Shown here in pieces: positions 4,797 to 40,343 of a DNA stretch of 64,000 bases. The position numbers and the translations under genes are program-made. The notes below the pieces were generated by a model. It had not been told where the DNA came from. It saw nothing but the letters and a program-made list of their open reading frames with translations, and did not search any database. Position 1 is the stretch's first letter. Every line of letters begins with the position of its first letter. The DNA is from Candidatus Accumulibacter sp. ACC003 (GTDB lineage Bacteria > Pseudomonadota > Gammaproteobacteria > Burkholderiales > Rhodocyclaceae): assembly GCF_907163085.1 (NCBI RefSeq), contig NZ_CAJQTX010000011.1, positions 186,001-250,000 on the forward strand, in the 5' to 3' direction.

Positions 4797-5831
4797 ATGG
4801 GAATTATCGCCTGGTTCAAGAACCGCCCGGCGCAGTTCGATAGCGATCGGTTGTCCGGCGCGATGCTGCGCGCGGCGACCGAAAAGGCGATCATGCTGAC
4901 CAACCCACGGCTGAATGTACTGCCGTCGTGTCATGCCCGCCTGGCTCCGGTGGTAGGCACGGCGATCGCCTTCCTGCAGGAGATGGTCGAGACGCTGCCC
5001 GGTGCCAGACCCCTGGCGACGGCGATCTGGTCTTCCGATCGCGCTCTGCGGGCATTTTTTGTCGCCGCCGCGGATATTCCGACAGCGCTCAGCCGCGCTG
5101 AAAATCTGCGCATACTGTTCGAAAAATATCCCGCAGTTGACGAGGCCTGGCTGCTCCTCGGCATGGCCTTCCGCGAGCAGCAGTCCCTCGGCACGGCGTT
5201 GCACGGGGCGATCGTTCGTCGCGATGTCGTGCAAACCAGCGTCAGCTTTTCAGACCACCGGGCACACATCTGCGGGCGCGACGAGGCCGAACTGCGCCGC
5301 CTCATCGGTGTGCAGGCCTTCGAGTATCTGCTGGCGCAGGCCTTGGCAGAAATTGGCGAGGACCGGGTCAAAAGACAGGAGCTGGAGGGCAATCGCGCCT
5401 TGATCCGGGCCCGCCTGCGTTTACTTCGTCAGCAGGGTTCAGGTCTGGGCGGGATGTTTGGCGCCGCTCCAGCGGCCGCTTCGAACGCTTCCGAGCAGGA
5501 GCAGTTGGCAGCGATGCTGCGCGAAAACGAGCAGCAACTGGAAGCCGTCGGTGACAGCATGTCGGCGCTGGAAATGGAGCTGGCGTGCTTGCAGGAAGTG
5601 CTCGCCAACCCGCAGCGCTATTTGCGGGTCGAGCAGAAAAGTGTGCGCCTGAATACGATGAACGTGCTGATCGACGAAGCGAGCACCGAGCACGCCGCCG
5701 ACATCGATTTCTGTCTGGCCGATCTGCGCGGCGAGTCGCCGCGGCAGAGGGCGTTCGTGCTGCTCCGTTGCGCGCGCGCCGAAGCGCCTGCACGGTTAAT
5801 CAATTTCGACGCGGCGGCGCGTTCCCTGTAA
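4797..5831 (+). CDS. Uncharacterised protein, alpha-helical
   Basis: 344 residues; family not recognised. It starts with MGIIAWFKNRPAQF and is predicted mostly helical. Residues about 185-290 are rich in Glu, Gln, Arg and Leu and look like a coiled coil interrupted by a short Gly/Ala/Pro linker (GSGLGGMFGAAPAAAS). No signal peptide or membrane helix is visible. The start follows GGAGGCAGGC, a good ribosome-binding site. It stands alone, 165 bases after purA. Codon use matches its neighbours, so it looks like a real gene. Confidence 0.7.
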   Translation: MGIIAWFKNRPAQFDSDRLSGAMLRAATEKAIMLTNPRLNVLPSCHARLAPVVGTAIAFLQEMVETLPGARPLATAIWSSDRALRAFFVAAADIPTALSRAENLRILFEKYPAVDEAWLLLGMAFREQQSLGTALHGAIVRRDVVQTSVSFSDHRAHICGRDEAELRRLIGVQAFEYLLAQALAEIGEDRVKRQELEGNRALIRARLRLLRQQGSGLGGMFGAAPAAASNASEQEQLAAMLRENEQQLEAVGDSMSALEMELACLQEVLANPQRYLRVEQKSVRLNTMNVLIDEASTEHAADIDFCLADLRGESPRQRAFVLLRCARAEAPARLINFDAAARSL

Positions 5832-5981
5832 ACTCCGGGCGGCGCATCGCTGCCAGCGCGGCCTATTCCATGCTCCAGGCCGCGGACCAGGATGCGCACT
5901 GAACGCTGCCATCGGCAGTCACCCATCAGCCACTCATGGATGTGTGTTCACATGTCCGTCAGACGTCCAGGAGAATCAAGC

Positions 5982-6485
5982 ATGAATCGAGAAGAACTTC
6001 GTGACCAGTTGCTTGCGCCGGTTCTGCAGTGCACCCGGCTCGGGCGGCAGACCAGCCAGTTGATGGTCGCCTCGAGCGAGGTTATCAGTCAGCGCAGCAG
6101 CCGCTTGCTGCGCGCCGGGCCGACGACCGGCCAGGCGGTCTGCGCCGAAGTCGCGCTAATGGTCCAGGAGAAGGTCGAGGTGCCGCTGGAGTCGGCGATC
6201 GCGATGGCGTCAGCGATGATTCCAGCTGCGCAGCGTTTCTGGACGCACGCCGCCGAATCGACACTGGCGTGCGGTAGCGACAGCGTGTCGCTGCTTGGCA
6301 GCCGTAGCGCCGATGACTTCCGGGCGCGCCAGGGAGCGTTGGCGACGACGCTGATCAACGCCACGCTCGGCTGGTTTCAGCTGTGGGGCGTCGCCGCCGA
6401 TGTCGCGAGTCAAGGACTGCAGCCGATACTTCGCCAGGTGAACGCCAACGCCGCGCGTCTGGCAAAGCCCGCGGCGAGGAACTGA
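5982..6485 (+). CDS. Small uncharacterised protein, possibly phasin-like
   Basis: 167 residues from the ATG at 5982, chosen because AGGAG lies about eight bases upstream; the frame opens earlier but has no better site. The sequence is amphipathic and helical with no signal peptide. The Ser/Ala/Gln/Val-rich composition and short length resemble phasin-type polyhydroxyalkanoate granule proteins, which would suit a polymer-storing organism, but no diagnostic motif is visible, so this is a weak inference. The gene is monocistronic, with about 460 bases without a convincing gene after it. Confidence 0.55.
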   Translation: MNREELRDQLLAPVLQCTRLGRQTSQLMVASSEVISQRSSRLLRAGPTTGQAVCAEVALMVQEKVEVPLESAIAMASAMIPAAQRFWTHAAESTLACGSDSVSLLGSRSADDFRARQGALATTLINATLGWFQLWGVAADVASQGLQPILRQVNANAARLAKPAARN

Positions 6486-30841: not shown

Positions 30842-31987
30842 CTATTGCTGCTTAAGGTCCAGTTGCGCCAGATCGATCCGCTTGCGGAAGCCGCGAAAGC
30901 GCAACCACGCCTTGCGCGACAGGTGTCGGGCCAGCAGGCCGGGTGGCATCCGCAACCAGTGGGCGCGCACATAGATCAGCCAGCGGGCGAGGGCCGCCAG
31001 GCGCGAGGGATAATCCGGGTGTTCAGGCAGCAGCGCCAGGTGAATCAGGCGATCCATCAGCCCGCGGATCGGCCAGGCCGGCGCCGCGTCGGCCAGCCCG
31101 CGTAGTACCTCCGGGGGAATCGGCGTGCCGAAAAGTCGTTGCGCATGATGCAGGCCGTAGAATAAGGGTCGCTGAAAACCAAGCTCGCGTGCCCGTAGCG
31201 CCAGGCCCGCCCAGAATCCTGGCTCCTGGCCATGGTGGCAAAGCAGATCGTGGACATCGACCAGATCGCGCAGGCGCAGACCCTCGTCGGGATCGCCCTC
31301 GAGAAACAGGTGCACCAGGGCGTGCAGCACCATGTCGGCAGGTGCAAGAACGCGTAGCCGCGGGTCGGCGAGTGGTCGGGCCGCCGCGAATAGTGGTGCC
31401 GGGTCCGATTTCAGGTGGCTGGTCTTCGGCAGCAGCCGATGATGAATGTCGATTTCGGTACCCCGCTCGCGGTGACGGAGCGGCGGAATCTCGTGCATCC
31501 AGACGCGGTAGTAACGGTCGTCGTACGGGTCGATGTCGGTCTTGAACCAGCCGCGTTCGACGAGTCTTTCCTCGATTTCGCCGAGCCGATCTTCCGGCAC
31601 CAGCAGATCGAGGTCGGCGAAGATCCGGCCGCGCGCCGGCGGCAAGCCGGCCAGCAGATAGCCGGTGCCCTTGAGCAGGATCAGCGGCACGTCGATGCCC
31701 TTGAGCGCCCACAGCAGACGGTTTACTTCCCAGGAGATCAGCGTCTGCCGATGCGCGATGACGTTGTGGGAGGCCCGCAGATGGGCGGCGGCGCGGGGCG
31801 GGATCTGGCCGAGCAAATTCGCCTGTTCGAGATCGGACTGCAGTCGTCCGAGTAGCCTGTTGCGGCGGGCTACGCGCAGCAGCAGTTCCCAGTCGGCAGG
31901 TGGCAGGGCGGGCAGTTTTTCGGGCGCCTGCAGCGCCTCGAACAGAAGCCGCTGCGCTCGCCGGTTTTCGCTGGCGGGTTTAGCCAT
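30842..31987 (-). CDS. Nucleotidyltransferase-family protein of a PqqD/kinase cassette
   Basis: 381 residues matching the uncharacterised nucleotidyltransferase family that occurs with HPr-kinase-like proteins. The nucleotidyltransferase-like motif is LLKGTGYLLAGL...RIFADLDLLV (Asp125 and Asp127), with a following EIDIHHRLLP strand. The C-terminal half is helical and His-rich (DMVLHALVHLFL). The ATG at 31987 overlaps the kinase stop by eight bases, so the two are translationally coupled. The start of the longer frame is rejected because it lies in the kinase gene. Substrate unknown. Confidence 0.8.
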   Translation of the reverse strand: MAKPASENRRAQRLLFEALQAPEKLPALPPADWELLLRVARRNRLLGRLQSDLEQANLLGQIPPRAAAHLRASHNVIAHRQTLISWEVNRLLWALKGIDVPLILLKGTGYLLAGLPPARGRIFADLDLLVPEDRLGEIEERLVERGWFKTDIDPYDDRYYRVWMHEIPPLRHRERGTEIDIHHRLLPKTSHLKSDPAPLFAAARPLADPRLRVLAPADMVLHALVHLFLEGDPDEGLRLRDLVDVHDLLCHHGQEPGFWAGLALRARELGFQRPLFYGLHHAQRLFGTPIPPEVLRGLADAAPAWPIRGLMDRLIHLALLPEHPDYPSRLAALARWLIYVRAHWLRMPPGLLARHLSRKAWLRFRGFRKRIDLAQLDLKQQ

Positions 31988-32897
31988 CGCTGGCCTGCGA
32001 AAGTTTGTCGAGCGCGTTGACCGCGTCGTCGAGATCCGAGTAGACCAGGGAATACGCATCGCAGGAGCGGACCATCTCGGTAACCAGCCGAAAGGCAATT
32101 TCGTCGAGGACCTCGTAGTTGAACGCGTTGGTTGCCACGCTCAGGAAAGCCTGGCTTTTCGGCATTGCTTCGAGGGTGAAGGGCGCCCCGGCGACCCAGC
32201 GCGGGAAAACGAGCCAGCGCGGACGCGCCGGCTCCTGCGCGCGCCTGATGCTTTCCACCGGTGGCCGTACATGCGCTACCGTGCCCTTGCGGGTTTCCAG
32301 GAAGGACGGCCCGATGATCGCCTCGGGCCTGAATTTCCGGATCACCTCGATCGACTGGTTCTTCAGCGGGATCAGGCGCGGTATGGGGAGCAGCATGCCA
32401 TCTTCGGGCCGGACAATTCCGAATTCGTCGGAGAGCAGGCGCCAGCCGGAGTGGATCAGTGCGGTACAGAGCGTCGACTTGCCGTCGCCCGGCGAGGCCG
32501 GAAACACGATCGCCCGGCCATTGCGCTCAACCGCCGCTGAATGCAGCAGCAGCAAGTGATGGGCGCGCGTCGCAACGCACCAGTTGATTCCCCATTCGAG
32601 CGCCGGAAAGGCATGTTCGATGGTATAGGGAGCGAAGGGCAATTGTCCATCGATGCCAAAGCACGCCTGCCGGCGTAGCCAGCGGCGCAGCCCGCGCGGT
32701 GCGCTGATGTCGACGTGAAAGTCGCTGATCGCTGCCGGCTCTGGCAGGGGGTAGGGCTCGTACAGCTGATGGGCGAGTGACGCGAAGGAGCCGAGGTTGG
32801 AGCGAATCCTGAGATTGAAAGGGCCGAACTGGAGTGCCAGACCTTCTCCCGCCAAGCGATCAGCCAATTCCCGGCGACTAAGGTCACCGACGATCAT
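31980..32897 (-). CDS. HPr-kinase-related protein (HprK-related kinase A type)
   Basis: 305 residues. The middle resembles the catalytic core of HPr(Ser) kinase: LLLLHSAAVERNGRAIVF, the P-loop ASPGDGKST (134-142) and LLSDEFG (155-161). It lacks the HprK N-terminal domain, and no HPr/PTS genes are near. In this family a kinase is paired with a PqqD-like protein and a nucleotidyltransferase, which are the two flanking genes here. The target is unknown; a peptide or protein substrate presented by the PqqD-like protein is the likely model. The ATG overlaps the PqqD-like stop (ATGA). Confidence 0.83.
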   Translation of the reverse strand: MIVGDLSRRELADRLAGEGLALQFGPFNLRIRSNLGSFASLAHQLYEPYPLPEPAAISDFHVDISAPRGLRRWLRRQACFGIDGQLPFAPYTIEHAFPALEWGINWCVATRAHHLLLLHSAAVERNGRAIVFPASPGDGKSTLCTALIHSGWRLLSDEFGIVRPEDGMLLPIPRLIPLKNQSIEVIRKFRPEAIIGPSFLETRKGTVAHVRPPVESIRRAQEPARPRWLVFPRWVAGAPFTLEAMPKSQAFLSVATNAFNYEVLDEIAFRLVTEMVRSCDAYSLVYSDLDDAVNALDKLSQASDG

Positions 32898-33184
32898 TGT
32901 GCGGTGCTGGGGTCGTCCACGAACTCGACCAGGCCCAGTTCCTCCAGCCTCGTCGTAGCGAATTCGAAATCGTTGGCGGCCAGTTCATCCTGGCTAACAC
33001 CAAGGGCAGCTTCGGTTTGGTGCCTGAGCACTTCCATCGACAGGGGACCTTGTTGCAGGCATTTCAAGATCAATACGGTGGTCTCGTTGAAAACGTGCGT
33101 CGCGGCAGCTGCCGGCTGATAAACAATGTAGATATCATCCCACTCTTGCCAGATCAAGCGATCAGCAAGCGGCGACACCAGCAT
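32894..33184 (-). CDS. PqqD-family peptide-binding protein (HPr-rel-A system)
   Basis: 96 residues from the ATG at 33184 (a GTG at 33208 would add eight). The winged-helix PqqD fold is suggested by WDDIYIVYQPAAAATHVFNETTVLILKCL and the later LEELGLVEFV. PqqD proteins bind precursor peptides and deliver them to modifying enzymes. Its overlap with the kinase gene and the nucleotidyltransferase downstream match the HPr-rel-A gene set known by name but not by function. Confidence 0.8.
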   Translation of the reverse strand: MLVSPLADRLIWQEWDDIYIVYQPAAAATHVFNETTVLILKCLQQGPLSMEVLRHQTEAALGVSQDELAANDFEFATTRLEELGLVEFVDDPSTAQ

Positions 33185-33270
33185 CAGCTCGGCTCTCGCG
33201 CCGTGCACGCCGCCATCAGGAAAGTTCTGGAGCGCATTCTATCGCATTCCAGAAAAGCTTGCCGAGACGT

Positions 33271-33783
33271 CTAACCGTAGAGGGAGGTGGCGCTTGCAGC
33301 ACTGAGGATCGCAACCGGCTGATTATTGTTGTACAAGCCGCCATCGCAATAGCGATAGGCAACGCCGCCGCCGGGCGCCCCCTGTTCCAGGACAACGCCG
33401 TTTTGAACTCCGCCGTTGATCTTTATCCCTTCTCCGCCATTGGCAGGGCATTGCTGCGCGTCAGTGGCGCAAACTTCCGACTGGCCGCTCGGAATGCCCT
33501 CTGTAGCGTTAATCTTGAATCGGGTAATGGCTTGACCGTTTTCATCCGTTGTTACAACTTGCTCGAGCGTCCCGATCGCTTTTGCAGCCGTGCACGATAC
33601 CGCCGCCGCTACCGCGCCGCTCCGCAAAGTCAGCACCAATGGCGCGAGAGCCATTGCACCGCGGACCAGGCGCCGCCGCTTCGCGTCCGAAATCAAAGCA
33701 CTTTCGGGGTTGGCTGTCGCACCGGGTGCAGATGACAAATCGACCGACTTGTTCGCGTCGTCAAGGTGTTCCGTAGATTTCAT
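33271..33783 (-). CDS. Exported Cys-containing protein beside the PqqD/kinase cassette
   Basis: 170 residues from the ATG at 33783, chosen for AGGAG eight bases upstream. A polar N-terminal region of about 34 residues is followed by KRRRLVRGAMALAPLVLTL and Ala-rich cleavage-like GAVAAAVSC, an export signal with a basic, Tat-like n-region. The mature part has Cys64, Cys105, Cys112 and Cys146 and is Gly/Asn/Ser-rich. No family was recognised. It lies 86 bases upstream of the PqqD-like gene on the same strand, so it is a candidate substrate or partner of that cassette. This link is inferred from position only. Confidence 0.6.
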   Translation of the reverse strand: MKSTEHLDDANKSVDLSSAPGATANPESALISDAKRRRLVRGAMALAPLVLTLRSGAVAAAVSCTAAKAIGTLEQVVTTDENGQAITRFKINATEGIPSGQSEVCATDAQQCPANGGEGIKINGGVQNGVVLEQGAPGGGVAYRYCDGGLYNNNQPVAILSAASATSLYG

Positions 33784-34140: not shown

Positions 34141-34184
34141 AAAAAAAACCGACAGTCTCCATCGGTGGCTGCTCCTCGGTTTTT
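34141..34184 (-). terminator. Intrinsic terminator after glnD
   Basis: On the minus strand AAAAACCGA (complement of 34176-34184) pairs with TCGGTTTTT (complement of 34144-34152), and the 3' arm runs on into eight T residues. A shorter alternative stem ACCGA/TCGGT exists inside it. It lies 60 bases after the glnD stop and could also stop transcription in the other direction. Confidence 0.65.
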
Positions 34185-37633: not shown

Positions 37634-37917
37634 GCGTGGAGCTCGGGGTCGAGATGAGAAGAGGGACGAAGGATAAAGGAAGCCAGGGGCTTAGGCAATT
37701 TGCCGGAGGGCGTCGGCGGTGGTCTGTGGCTGCTCGGTGCCGGCGCCTGGAAACAGCAGGAGGGCGCAGCGCTGAAGCATGACTGCGCCAGCCCAGTACT
37801 GGCAAGGCGTTGCGGTGGGCAGGCAAAAAAGGTTTCGCACAAGGGAGCTAGACAGCCGGGGGGACTTCTGGCAGGATAGGTGGAGGGTCATTGGTCCACG
37901 TTTCAGCCGGAGGTATC

Positions 37918-38826
37918 GTGGTGGTTGCAACGAGCGAAGGGGAGTGGGTGCACTGCGGTCGCGTATTCAGCGCCGCGGAGATCGCCGAGGTGTGCGGGAC
38001 GGTGGCGTGGCTGCCGGGATTGGCGCGCAAGGAGTTGGCGGCGACGGTCTGCGAGCACCTGGGGTGGACCACTCTGACAGGGACGGCGAAGATCAGCGCC
38101 TGCCTGGAGTTTCTGGAGCGTTTGCAGGCGGCCGGGCTGCTGACACTGCCGGCGATAAGGCCGTCGTCAGCACGCCGTTGCGCGCCGCCCGCGGCACCCG
38201 TAGATACGGTCACCGGGGAGCTTCCCGTGCACTGCGCCCTGTCGGCACTCGCACCGGTCTGCCTGGAAGTCGTTCGCGACGCGGCGTTGGTGGCGCAGTG
38301 GGATGCGCTGGTGGCGCGCTGGCACCCACTGGGTTTCCAGGGGGCCTTCGGCTACCGCCTGCGCTACTTCATCACGGCGGGCGACCGGCGGCTCGGCAGC
38401 GTCCTGCTGGCCGGCGCTGCCCGCGCGGTCGCCGTGCGCGACCGCTGGATCGGCTGGACGGCCCAGGCCCGCCGCGAGAACCTGGCGCGGGTGGTGAACA
38501 ACAGCCGCTTCCTGATCTTTCCCCACGTCCGGGTGCCGCATCTGGCCAGTCATGTGCTCGGACAACTCGCGCGCCGCGCACGCGCGGACTGGCTCGATCA
38601 CTGGGGCTTCGAGCCCCTGTTGCTGGAGACTTTCGTCGATCCTCGTCACTATACCGGCACCTGTTACCGCGCGGCCGGTTGGCAGTTGCTCGGGGCAACC
38701 AGCGGGCGCGGGCTGGCCCGCCCCGGCCAGTCGTATCGCAGCACGCCCCGCCAGGTGTGGCTCAAACCGCTGAGCGCCGATTGTCGCGACCGGCTGTGTG
38801 CCGCCCCTGGGAGCTCCCGGCCATGA
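37918..38826 (+). CDS. DUF4338 protein, DruA-like, carried by a transposon
   Basis: About 302 residues. An N-terminal helix-turn-helix-like part (FSAAEIAEVCGTVAWLP) precedes a DUF4338 domain: GYRLRYFITAGDRRLGSVLL, DRWIGWTAQARRENLARVV, VVNNSRFLIFPHVRVPHLASHVL and ETFVDPRHYTGTCYRAAGW. DUF4338 is the domain of DruA of the Druantia antiphage system. Here the other Druantia genes are missing and a transposase follows, so a role in transposition is more likely. The GTG at 37918 follows GGAGG; an earlier TTG at 37891 is possible. The stop overlaps the transposase ATG. Confidence 0.75.
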   Translation: MVVATSEGEWVHCGRVFSAAEIAEVCGTVAWLPGLARKELAATVCEHLGWTTLTGTAKISACLEFLERLQAAGLLTLPAIRPSSARRCAPPAAPVDTVTGELPVHCALSALAPVCLEVVRDAALVAQWDALVARWHPLGFQGAFGYRLRYFITAGDRRLGSVLLAGAARAVAVRDRWIGWTAQARRENLARVVNNSRFLIFPHVRVPHLASHVLGQLARRARADWLDHWGFEPLLLETFVDPRHYTGTCYRAAGWQLLGATSGRGLARPGQSYRSTPRQVWLKPLSADCRDRLCAAPGSSRP

Positions 38827-40343
38827 GCAAACCCTGCCGTCGCCCGACACGCGCTGCCCTCAAGGAGCTGCGCTCAGAGAAGAAACGGCAGGAAAAGGCA
38901 CTGAACGCGAAACGGCGCGCGAGTGGACAAGTCCTCCACTCCCCCACTTCTCTGCCCAACCGATGCTCAGCCTTCGCGACCGTCGGCGAGGAAAGGGAGG
39001 CCCGCGAGGACGCCGTGAGCAAAAAGACGCGTCTCCTGCGCAAAGAGCTACCCGCCTTGCTCGAGCAACTGGAACAAATTCCCGACCCGAGAGACCCCAG
39101 GAAGCGCCGCCACAAGCTGACCGCGCTGCTGCTTTACGGTCTGCTGATGTTCGTCTTTCAGTTCTCCTCTCGGCGCGAGACCAACCGCGAAATATCCCGT
39201 CCCCAGTTCATGGCCAACCTCCACCTGCTGTTCCCGGAGATCGAGACCCTGCCACACGCCGACACCCTGTTTCGGCTGCTGCGCGACATCGACCTTGACC
39301 ACCTTGAGCAGGCCCACGTCGATCTGGTGAAGCGGCTGATCCGCGGCAAGAGCTTCCGCCGCTATCTGATCAACCACTGCTACCCCATCGCCATCGACGG
39401 CTCGCAGAAGGTCGCCGGCGACACCCTCTGGGCGGAGGAACTCCTCCAGCGCACCGTCGGCAAGGAGGAAACCCGCCACACCCAGTACTTCGTCTACGTC
39501 CTCGAGGCCAGCCTGGCTTTCCACAACGGCCTGGTCGTCCCACTGCTCAGCGAGTTCCTCGAACACGCGCTGGGCGATACCGAAGCGCAAAAGCAGGACT
39601 GCGAGCTGCGCGGCTTTGTGCGCTTGAGCGACCGGCTCAAGACGCTGTTCCCCCGCCTGCCGATCCTGCTCCTGCTCGACGGCCTTTACGCCAACGGGCC
39701 GGTGATGCAGCGCTGCTTGCGCGCCCACTGGCAGTTCATTATCGTGCTTAAGGACAAGGATTTGTCCACGGTCTGGCAGGAGTTCCGCGCACTCCACGCC
39801 CTGAAGCCACAAGCCGTGCAGCGCGCTTGGGGAAGGCGCCGACAACACTTCAGCTGGGTCAACGACATCGACTACGCCTTCGCGGCCAACGGGCGTCAGC
39901 GTCTCAAGCTGAACCTGGTGGTCTGTGAGGAAAGCTGGGAAAAGATCGATGAACAGGCCAGGACCGTCACCGAAACATCGCGCCACGCCTGGCTCTCCAG
40001 CCAACCGCTCAGACAAGACAATGTCCATGAGCGCTGCAACCTCGGTGCCCGCCACCGTTGGGGCATCGAAGCGGGCTTCCTCGTCGAAAAACATCAGGGC
40101 TACCACTACGAGCATGCCTTTGCCCTCGACTGGAATGCCATGAAAGGCTATCACCTCCTCATGCGCCTGGCGCATGTGTTCAATACCCTGGCACGTTTCA
40201 CCCGGCAGTTACGCAACCTGTATCAAGAACTCGGTGTGCGCGGCGCCATCGCCTTCATCCGTAATTCCTGTGCTGCGCCCTGGCTTGACCCAGCACGCCT
40301 GCGTCTGCTTCTCGCCGAACCGTTCCTGCTGCAACTCGAATAA
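38823..40343 (+). CDS. DDE-type transposase
   Basis: 506 residues from the ATG overlapping the DruA-like stop (ATGA). After a basic N-terminus comes a transposase-like core: LEQLEQIPDPRDPRKRRHKL, HCYPIAIDGSQKVAGDTLW with a candidate catalytic Asp, LLLDGLYANGPVMQ with a second, and a C-terminal RHRWGIEAGFLVEKHQGYHYEH carrying the Glu. The last region resembles transposases of unclassified IS families. The frame reads on upstream without a stop through the whole DruA-like gene, but only this start fits. The gene looks intact. Confidence 0.75.
   Translation: MSKPCRRPTRAALKELRSEKKRQEKALNAKRRASGQVLHSPTSLPNRCSAFATVGEEREAREDAVSKKTRLLRKELPALLEQLEQIPDPRDPRKRRHKLTALLLYGLLMFVFQFSSRRETNREISRPQFMANLHLLFPEIETLPHADTLFRLLRDIDLDHLEQAHVDLVKRLIRGKSFRRYLINHCYPIAIDGSQKVAGDTLWAEELLQRTVGKEETRHTQYFVYVLEASLAFHNGLVVPLLSEFLEHALGDTEAQKQDCELRGFVRLSDRLKTLFPRLPILLLLDGLYANGPVMQRCLRAHWQFIIVLKDKDLSTVWQEFRALHALKPQAVQRAWGRRRQHFSWVNDIDYAFAANGRQRLKLNLVVCEESWEKIDEQARTVTETSRHAWLSSQPLRQDNVHERCNLGARHRWGIEAGFLVEKHQGYHYEHAFALDWNAMKGYHLLMRLAHVFNTLARFTRQLRNLYQELGVRGAIAFIRNSCAAPWLDPARLRLLLAEPFLLQLE

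Follow-up and report, generated by a model that had tools for sequence, protein, structure and literature searches.

The window analysed here (the whole stretch of 64,000 nucleotides from contig NZ_CAJQTX010000011.1 of Candidatus Accumulibacter sp. ACC003) carries a cassette in which the gene for an exported protein of 170 residues precedes the HPr-rel-A trio (i.e. a PqqD-like protein, an HprK-related kinase and a nucleotidyltransferase). All four genes lie on the minus strand, the cassette spanning 33783 down to 30842. The association of these genes across genomes strongly supports the exported protein as the substrate of the trio, which it very probably is, and it seems reasonably likely that the four genes form one tailoring unit, in which binding of the leader by the PqqD-like protein would be followed by serine phosphorylation, a second transfer and export. 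The features concerned are listed below (L and G numbers denote compared loci and genomes).

33271..33783, minus strand: exported protein of 170 residues, proposed substrate (precursor) of type B, with relatives in L135-L147
32894..33208, minus strand: putative PqqD-like leader-binding protein (TIGR04353, 60 bits against a cut-off of 35), annotated from a GTG
31980..32897, minus strand: HprK-related kinase A, 305 residues (TIGR04352, 408.9 bits against a cut-off of 200)
30842..31987, minus strand: PF14907 nucleotidyltransferase, 381 residues (198.8 bits against a cut-off of 31.2)
33592..33678, minus strand: twin-arginine leader, residues 36-64 (RRRLVRGAMALAPLVLTLRSGAVAAAVSC), from conservation in group A2, the window's own
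33280..33306, minus strand: C-terminal Ser motif, residues 160-168 (LSAASATSL), proposed acceptor region, from a leave-group-out position-specific scoring matrix

An earlier note on this DNA had described a trio overlapping by 4 and 8 bases, and these overlaps are seen at 32894-32897 and 31980-31987. The family-model scores agree with its assignment of the three genes, and the kinase and the PqqD-like protein both exceed curated cut-offs, in line with the HPr-rel-A identity it had given them. The four Cys it had reported in the exported neighbour are residues 64, 105, 112 and 146, and its statement that no family explains this protein holds for NCBIfam and Pfam (no match at E ≤ 1). HPr-rel-A itself is known here as named families only, and no NCBIfam model among them matches the exported protein. 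Across the whole genome, the kinase family, PF14907 and the window-type exported protein have one match each, all at this locus.

Association of the exported protein with the trio

Among 369 genomes of the class, 41 have a kinase above the TIGR04352 cut-off, and 40 regions besides the window were taken from these; together with 22 further strong kinase matches from 150 genomes of the order and the window itself this makes 63 loci. A separate collection of 80 named loci includes four that repeat loci of the class and order set. Three loci were excluded from the leader tally, where the contig ends shortly upstream: L061 (583 bp), L163 (683 bp) and L177 (451 bp).

The earlier note had predicted a homologue of the exported protein beside other HPr-rel-A trios, rather than its being absent or unrelated there, and such a partner is present in 62/62 evaluable class and order loci and in 77 of the 78 evaluable named ones. 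In the class and order set it lies upstream in 59 loci, 57 of them recognised by the leader profile (at least 18 bits) and two (L040 and L108) by a body still identifiable as type A behind a diverged leader (the types are described below), while the three downstream cases (L111, L112 and L114) are rearranged loci with the gene behind the nucleotidyltransferase. For 75/78 named loci the leader profile recognises an upstream partner; in L200 the leader has diverged but the body is of type A, and in L202 a short leader protein is encoded downstream.

The gene order of the window trio is kept in most loci. A PqqD profile match stands directly before the kinase in 57 of the 59 loci with the exported protein upstream (the exceptions, at E ≤ 0.01, being L063 and L070); in L111 the PqqD gene has also been relocated downstream. 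The nucleotidyltransferase follows the kinase on the same strand in 57/63 class and order loci and 79/80 named loci; in six of the remaining loci the PF14907 gene is upstream on the opposite strand. Two loci on plasmids of Vibrio and Sphingomonas (i.e. in other groups) have an exported protein upstream too, the Vibrio locus without an annotated PqqD.

The association was also seen from the side of the exported protein. The type A profile matches 49 of the 369 class genomes, and a match over leader and body occurs in 29/41 kinase-positive genomes versus 0/328 others (Fisher p 8e-34). At least 10 of the 22 profile rows stem from the kinase-positive genomes searched (with at most 9 candidates scored per genome), so that presence is partly built into the profile and it is the absence from kinase-negative genomes that is informative. 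The window-type profile matches 7 of the 150 order genomes, each time beside the kinase (7/25 kinase-positive versus 0/125 others, p 1.6e-6). A type A body without the leader is found in 4/328 kinase-negative class genomes (G080, G084, G099 and G215). Leader-only matches number 20 in the 369 class genomes: an HprK-like kinase stands within about 2.1 kb of 16 matches, and none was seen in the stretch examined around the remaining four (two in L252, one each in L256 and L257).

Two further occurrences of the type A body were noticed. The window's own genome has, on contig C1 (L269:2960-12568), a frame of 3203 residues that holds a leaderless type A body (TPGFWKTH...STAALLNAANG), and in G296, whose cassette lies elsewhere in the genome, contig C20 (L258) encodes another type A leader protein, the 10 kb examined there giving no kinase profile match.

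Anatomy of the exported partner

What the partners have in common is a leader and a short Ser motif, the bodies often being unrelated between loci. The common leader pattern is RR...PxVLTLxS...A: among 128 leaders the two arginines are kept in 127-128, followed by Pro (89), Thr (113), Leu (108), any residue, Ser (106) and an Ala-type ending. In the 14 leader rows of the window group R36, R37, P48, L51, T52, L53, R54, S55, G56 and A60 are invariant, and the mean majority fraction in group A2 is 0.83 in the leader and 0.70 at the C-end versus 0.32 in the middle. A plain twin-arginine signal does not need conservation of T-L-x-S to this degree.

Comparison of 58 mature parts grouped 42 together as type A (the low-complexity L117 among them) and left 15, including that of the window, in small groups or singletons (type B), with L113 standing alone. 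The type A bodies (22 members) have no convincing family in Pfam or NCBIfam (3 and 1 families, each matched by one member, best E 0.049 and 0.038), and against the PDB they gave matches at E 0.68-0.73 only. In type A the motif, x-x-S-[GAS]-x-x-S, comes directly after the leader in 41/43 proteins (L113 and L117 counted), whereas in type B it lies near the C-end and reads approximately [IVL]-[ST]-x-[SAG]-[CAS]-x-[TAN]-S-[LIFV].

The 15 type B 9-mers were picked by eye and then tested with a leave-group-out matrix, for which the type B motif was the top site in 14/15 proteins, nine of them at p ≤ 0.003. A matrix trained on the N-terminal motif of type A only ranked the C-terminal motif of type B first in 8/15 proteins and in the top ten in 13/15, with L054 offering just 11 positions for this ranking. 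Conversely, the matrix made from the 15 type B motifs found its best site within 25 residues of the C-end in 46/49 named proteins (29% by chance), and 32/49 reached p < 0.01; this named set, defined by pattern, includes close relatives of the 15 training proteins, and the three exceptions (L186, L195 and L199) prove on reading to be type A. In the window's group A2 S161 is invariant, while what the wider set shares is the final Ser of the motif.

The smallest partner is the 74-residue protein of L054 (L054:4287-4508), whose C-terminal part consists of leader plus Ser motif (i.e. a minimal form). In L117 (L117:5297-5740), from a genome of the window's family, a long Ser-rich tail replaces the usual motif. 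The Ser of TLxS, seven residues after the leader Pro, was also considered as acceptor and rejected, because some loci have A, N, G or V at this position.

Motif type follows the kinase

In a tree of 130 kinases those with type A partners (68) and those with type B partners (62) are parted by a single change, at a branch with support 99, against a mean of about 44 changes for shuffled labels. A mixture-model tree of 57 kinases chosen from these likewise required 1 change (shuffled mean 19); such label shuffles show clustering only. Left out of the larger tree were L039 and L070 (for both, extrapolating the start had yielded a short frame), L061, L117, L163, L167, L177, L200 and L202, as well as the named repeats L158, L192, L207 and L211. 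The labels of L111, L112 and L114 came from the downstream copies, that of L113 (A) from its N-terminal motif, and those of the named loci (25 A) were assigned by eye.

Because one change separates the two types, the kinase tracks the position of the motif, and this split crosses taxonomy. The window's family has type B (the window) as well as type A (L113 and L119), both types also occur in another family (A in L038, B in L041), and the named Accumulibacter in the tree are all type B except sp. 66-26 (L178), which is type A. As the N-terminal motif of its partner predicts, the Vibrio kinase groups with type A. The Sphingomonas kinase (L264) is on a long unsupported branch near type A; its partner is without the N-terminal motif and has, by eye, a weak C-terminal one. 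Being a near-universal neighbour whose Ser motif is matched to the kinase, the exported protein is therefore probably the target of the trio, and the earlier suggestion of a tailoring system with its target next to it gains support from the co-occurrence, from the common leader and Ser motif, and from the agreement of motif position with kinase clade.

The trio and known tailoring systems

The frame of the PqqD-like protein opens with GTG at 33208, but its residue 9 is encoded by an ATG at 33184, and this is the likelier start since Met is aligned there in four (L135, L136, L138 and L140) of the seven closest rows (L135, L136, L138-L141 and L144). In a profile search of the PDB the top match was 6jx3_B (E 0.0017), i.e. 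TfuB1, a lasso recognition element. The kinase, whose closest relative among the named genomes is that of an Accumulibacter (83% identity), has H119, a P-loop with K140 and S156-D157-E158 invariant among 16 aligned kinases. Its profile matched 1jb1, 2qmh and 1ko7 in the PDB over the P-loop at E 0.16-0.19; neither the window kinase nor the window nucleotidyltransferase alone found a useful relative there, and the kinase had no match at E ≤ 1 to TIGR00679 or PF07475 (classical HPr kinase/phosphorylase). In the nucleotidyltransferase K106-G107, R121, D125-x-D127, W163-x-H165-E166 and D180-x-H182 are conserved in 98-99% of 142 aligned rows.

Counterparts of these activities have been described in lasso peptides. 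The paeninodin precursor is phosphorylated at its C-terminal Ser by PadeK, a homologue of HPr kinase, and in pseudomycoidin phosphorylation by PsmK is followed by the addition of one or two hexoses in vivo by PsmN, which carries a nucleotidyltransferase annotation (PMC9266682, PMC8498205). As in the window, these systems combine an HprK-like kinase for Ser, a later-acting nucleotidyltransferase and a leader-recognition protein. The likeness of the window PqqD protein to the B1/PqqD kind of recognition protein comes from the sequence profile (TfuB1), the PF14907-type transferase would be the counterpart of PsmN, and the His-Lys-Asp-Asp set reported for the lasso kinases is close to H119, K140 and D157-E158 (PMC9266682). 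A survey of ruminal bacteria is reported to have met an HPr kinase, PqqD and an uncharacterised nucleotidyltransferase together with lasso clusters (PMC7533575). However, lasso systems have short peptides, whereas the proposed HPr-rel-A substrates are RR-leader proteins mostly of 100-300 residues. Since the whole genome has no match to PF13471 (the lasso B2 peptidase), the window locus is not a lasso cluster; no lasso cyclase occurs among its direct neighbours, to which the search for one was confined.

In Deinococcus a gene annotated as lasso B2 joins PF14907 and PF13471 (the latter of the lasso B2 type) in one protein, and a PqqD gene lies about 4 kb away, the PF14907 domain matching the profile of the HPr-rel-A transferases at 7e-40. 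The Deinococcus psychrotolerans plasmid concerned (L262:1142-1333 and 4899-6239) bears the fusion gene, the PqqD gene and a hypothetical protein of 64 residues that has YSSPRL and resembles a lasso precursor; an extracellular nuclease gene adjoins.

The LPP family of Bacillota (LppA, B, K, N, S and D) likewise combines a discrete recognition element, an HprK-like kinase and an NTP (nucleoside triphosphate) transferase, with LppK phosphorylating Ser3 of the core, and its precursors of 35-200 residues have a conserved N-terminal region and variable C-termini; TfuB1 (6jx3) is among the recognition-element/leader complexes treated in the same source (PMC13381572). The PxVL of the LPP leader (YxxPxVLxHQxIxFETxxS) is common to the window leader (APLVLTLRS), which is otherwise of the RR type. 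LPP further has its own signal-peptidase-like (SpI-like) protease and an MsbA-like transporter; neither was found among the direct neighbours of the window locus, the range covered for both. The main text of PMC13381572 has zero mentions of proteobacteria, Pseudomonadota, PqqD or Tat (twin-arginine translocation). By model names ScmC and ScmD of SynChlorMet are an HprK-like and PqqD-like pair as in the window, but the window proteins match these models weakly, far below the cut-offs (27.6 versus 125 and 12.9 versus 100). Literature searches for HPr-rel-A, for the HprK-related kinase (also with PqqD) and for PF14907 gave no paper on the system, and among the matches listed in broader searches only PMC13381572 was on topic.

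Proposed mechanism

The best reading is that the system is a Gram-negative, protein-sized counterpart of the tailoring of paeninodin, pseudomycoidin and LPP, with a chemistry that would follow by analogy. The PqqD-like protein would then probably bind the leader of the substrate in the cytoplasm, like the lasso and LPP recognition elements. A little less assuredly, the HprK-related kinase would phosphorylate a Ser in the short motif, which in the window comprises the C-terminal residues 160-168. The PF14907 enzyme may subsequently add a further group to the phosphate, for which a hexose (as with PsmN in pseudomycoidin) is the likeliest if tentative candidate, a nucleotide being a possible alternative. 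The modified protein is quite likely to be exported via the twin-arginine route with removal of its leader, judging from the RR and the Ala ending. We infer this order, from leader binding through phosphorylation and transfer to export, from the lasso and LPP precedents and the likenesses in sequence.

The chances seem about even that four broader statements hold jointly: that HPr-rel-A is a widespread proteobacterial maker of phosphorylated, sugar-decorated exported proteins; that a single leader doubles as recognition tag and export signal; that the acceptor Ser motif has shifted between the N- and C-terminus of unrelated proteins in step with the kinase; and that, as the minimal form in L054 would imply, the tailoring of proteins and that of peptide natural products grade into each other.

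Alternative explanations

Several observations weigh against this mechanism. For the window taken singly the motif match is modest (shuffle p 0.0115 with the leave-group-out matrix, and ranked 4th by the matrix trained on type A), and four of the 15 type B proteins (L054, L065, L068 and L069) are singly non-significant. Between 1 and 12 residues separate the end of a type B motif from the C-end (2 in the window, where the final residue is Gly), so the acceptor need not be the final residue as in paeninodin, and a conserved terminal Ser motif could instead serve in attachment or sorting. The kinase has diverged so far that Pfam gives no match at E ≤ 1, and the window leader is without the aromatic residue (Tyr) of the [Y/W]xxP motif of lasso and LPP leaders, with only PxVL in common. 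Named locus L167 has no partner that could be found. Finally, of 14 control loci with HprK-like kinases below the TIGR04352 cut-off 12 were read (L127 and L129 gave no tblastn match), and two of these, L131 and L134, also have leader proteins (at least 20 bits), so the leader is not unique to HPr-rel-A; these two seem to represent a distinct though related system whose precursors are short.

If the kinase were a regulatory HPr-type kinase acting on the HPr of the genome, the exported protein would be an unrelated neighbour. The relation to HprK (1jb1, 2qmh and 1ko7, over the P-loop) and a Vibrio family member that matches TIGR00679 at 1.8e-5, far below its cut-off, fit this explanation, but the HPr and classical HprK of the genome are both unlinked to the trio (the sole HPr match is on contig C7 and the sole Hpr_kinase_C match on C5, the window being on C11), and it becomes very improbable given the presence of the exported protein at 62/62 and 77/78 evaluable loci and a motif type that follows the kinase tree. 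Improbable too, if less extremely, is an ordinary twin-arginine signal combined with a PqqD protein that binds something else, the exported protein then being a periplasmic effector or inhibitor of a pathway: such signals commonly have RR, a hydrophobic core and an Ala-type ending, but T-L-x-S is conserved at 83-88% over the 128 leaders, most leader-only matches (16/20) lie near an HprK-like kinase, and the terminal Ser motif follows the kinase clade. A generic signal is not favoured, given the leader conservation and these leader-only matches.

Two further alternatives keep the exported protein as the target and differ in what is attached to it. It is unlikely that the transferase puts a nucleotide (adenosine or uridine monophosphate, AMP or UMP, or the like) and no sugar on Ser or on the phosphate. 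PF14907 is named for nucleotidyltransferases and its KG...DxD is kept at 99% (142 rows), and for PsmN nucleotidylation followed by a host glycosyltransferase remained possible (PMC9266682), but PsmN adds one or two hexoses in vivo (PMC9266682, PMC8498205) and sugar-nucleotide epimerase genes flank 9/38 class loci sampled. Slightly more doubtful is a carrier or anchor role, in which a phosphodiester would link a polysaccharide or lipid to the C-terminal (type B) or N-terminal (type A) motif; in both types the motif is close to one end of the mature protein, some loci have sugar-nucleotide genes beside them, and atypical lasso clusters with an LPP part occur inside capsule loci (PMC13381572), but the window locus lies between polymerase-like and GlnD-like genes without a polysaccharide cluster, and no ligase gene was identified.

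Flanking genes and related leaders

Downstream of the cassette lies a DNA polymerase III alpha-like gene and upstream of it a GlnD-like gene; one further feature lies between the latter and the cassette:

34148..34166, minus strand: terminator-like stem between the GlnD-like and exported-protein genes (1 found versus a shuffle mean of 0.8)

Its position after the GlnD-like gene would weakly suggest a separate transcript for the cassette, the stem count being not above chance. Further away, at 37779-40343 on the plus strand, the window has a large frame whose C-terminal half is transposase-like by eye.

The flank scan covered 66/73 flanking proteins from 38 class loci and found trypsin-like peptidases (PF13365) 10 times, in 10 loci, sugar-nucleotide epimerases 9 times, in 9 loci, and 6 PF14907 genes in the opposite orientation. 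The peptidase is on the upstream side in L034, L042, L044, L046, L047, L057, L060 and L070 and on the downstream side in L031 and L040. In some species it may be a processing protease, and the epimerase may supply the sugar donor; neither gene is among the direct neighbours of the window locus.

Short proteins with leaders of the form SRRxFLKK..Y.AP[AV][VI]LTL..[AM]P..A stand by HprK-like kinases below the cut-off in L131, L134, L253, L254 and L255, and the same type occurs in L252, L256 and L257, again with no kinase in the stretch examined. These leaders contain the lasso/LPP recognition motif YxxPxV, and the proteins look like a second system of leader and HprK-like kinase with small precursors. 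In L126 and L128 short proteins with RR[AD]FLKKAGKFAVYTPPA[VM]M[ML]LM.PS leaders lie upstream of other HprK-like kinases.

Significance

A gene set known here from family models alone thus gains a candidate substrate, a candidate acceptor region and a biochemical analogy. If the proposed mechanism is true, enzymes of the kind that tailor peptide natural products in Gram-positive bacteria, here an HprK-like kinase with a PF14907 transferase, would also act on entire exported proteins across many Proteobacteria, including Accumulibacter, Nitrosomonas, Massilia and Thiobacillus.

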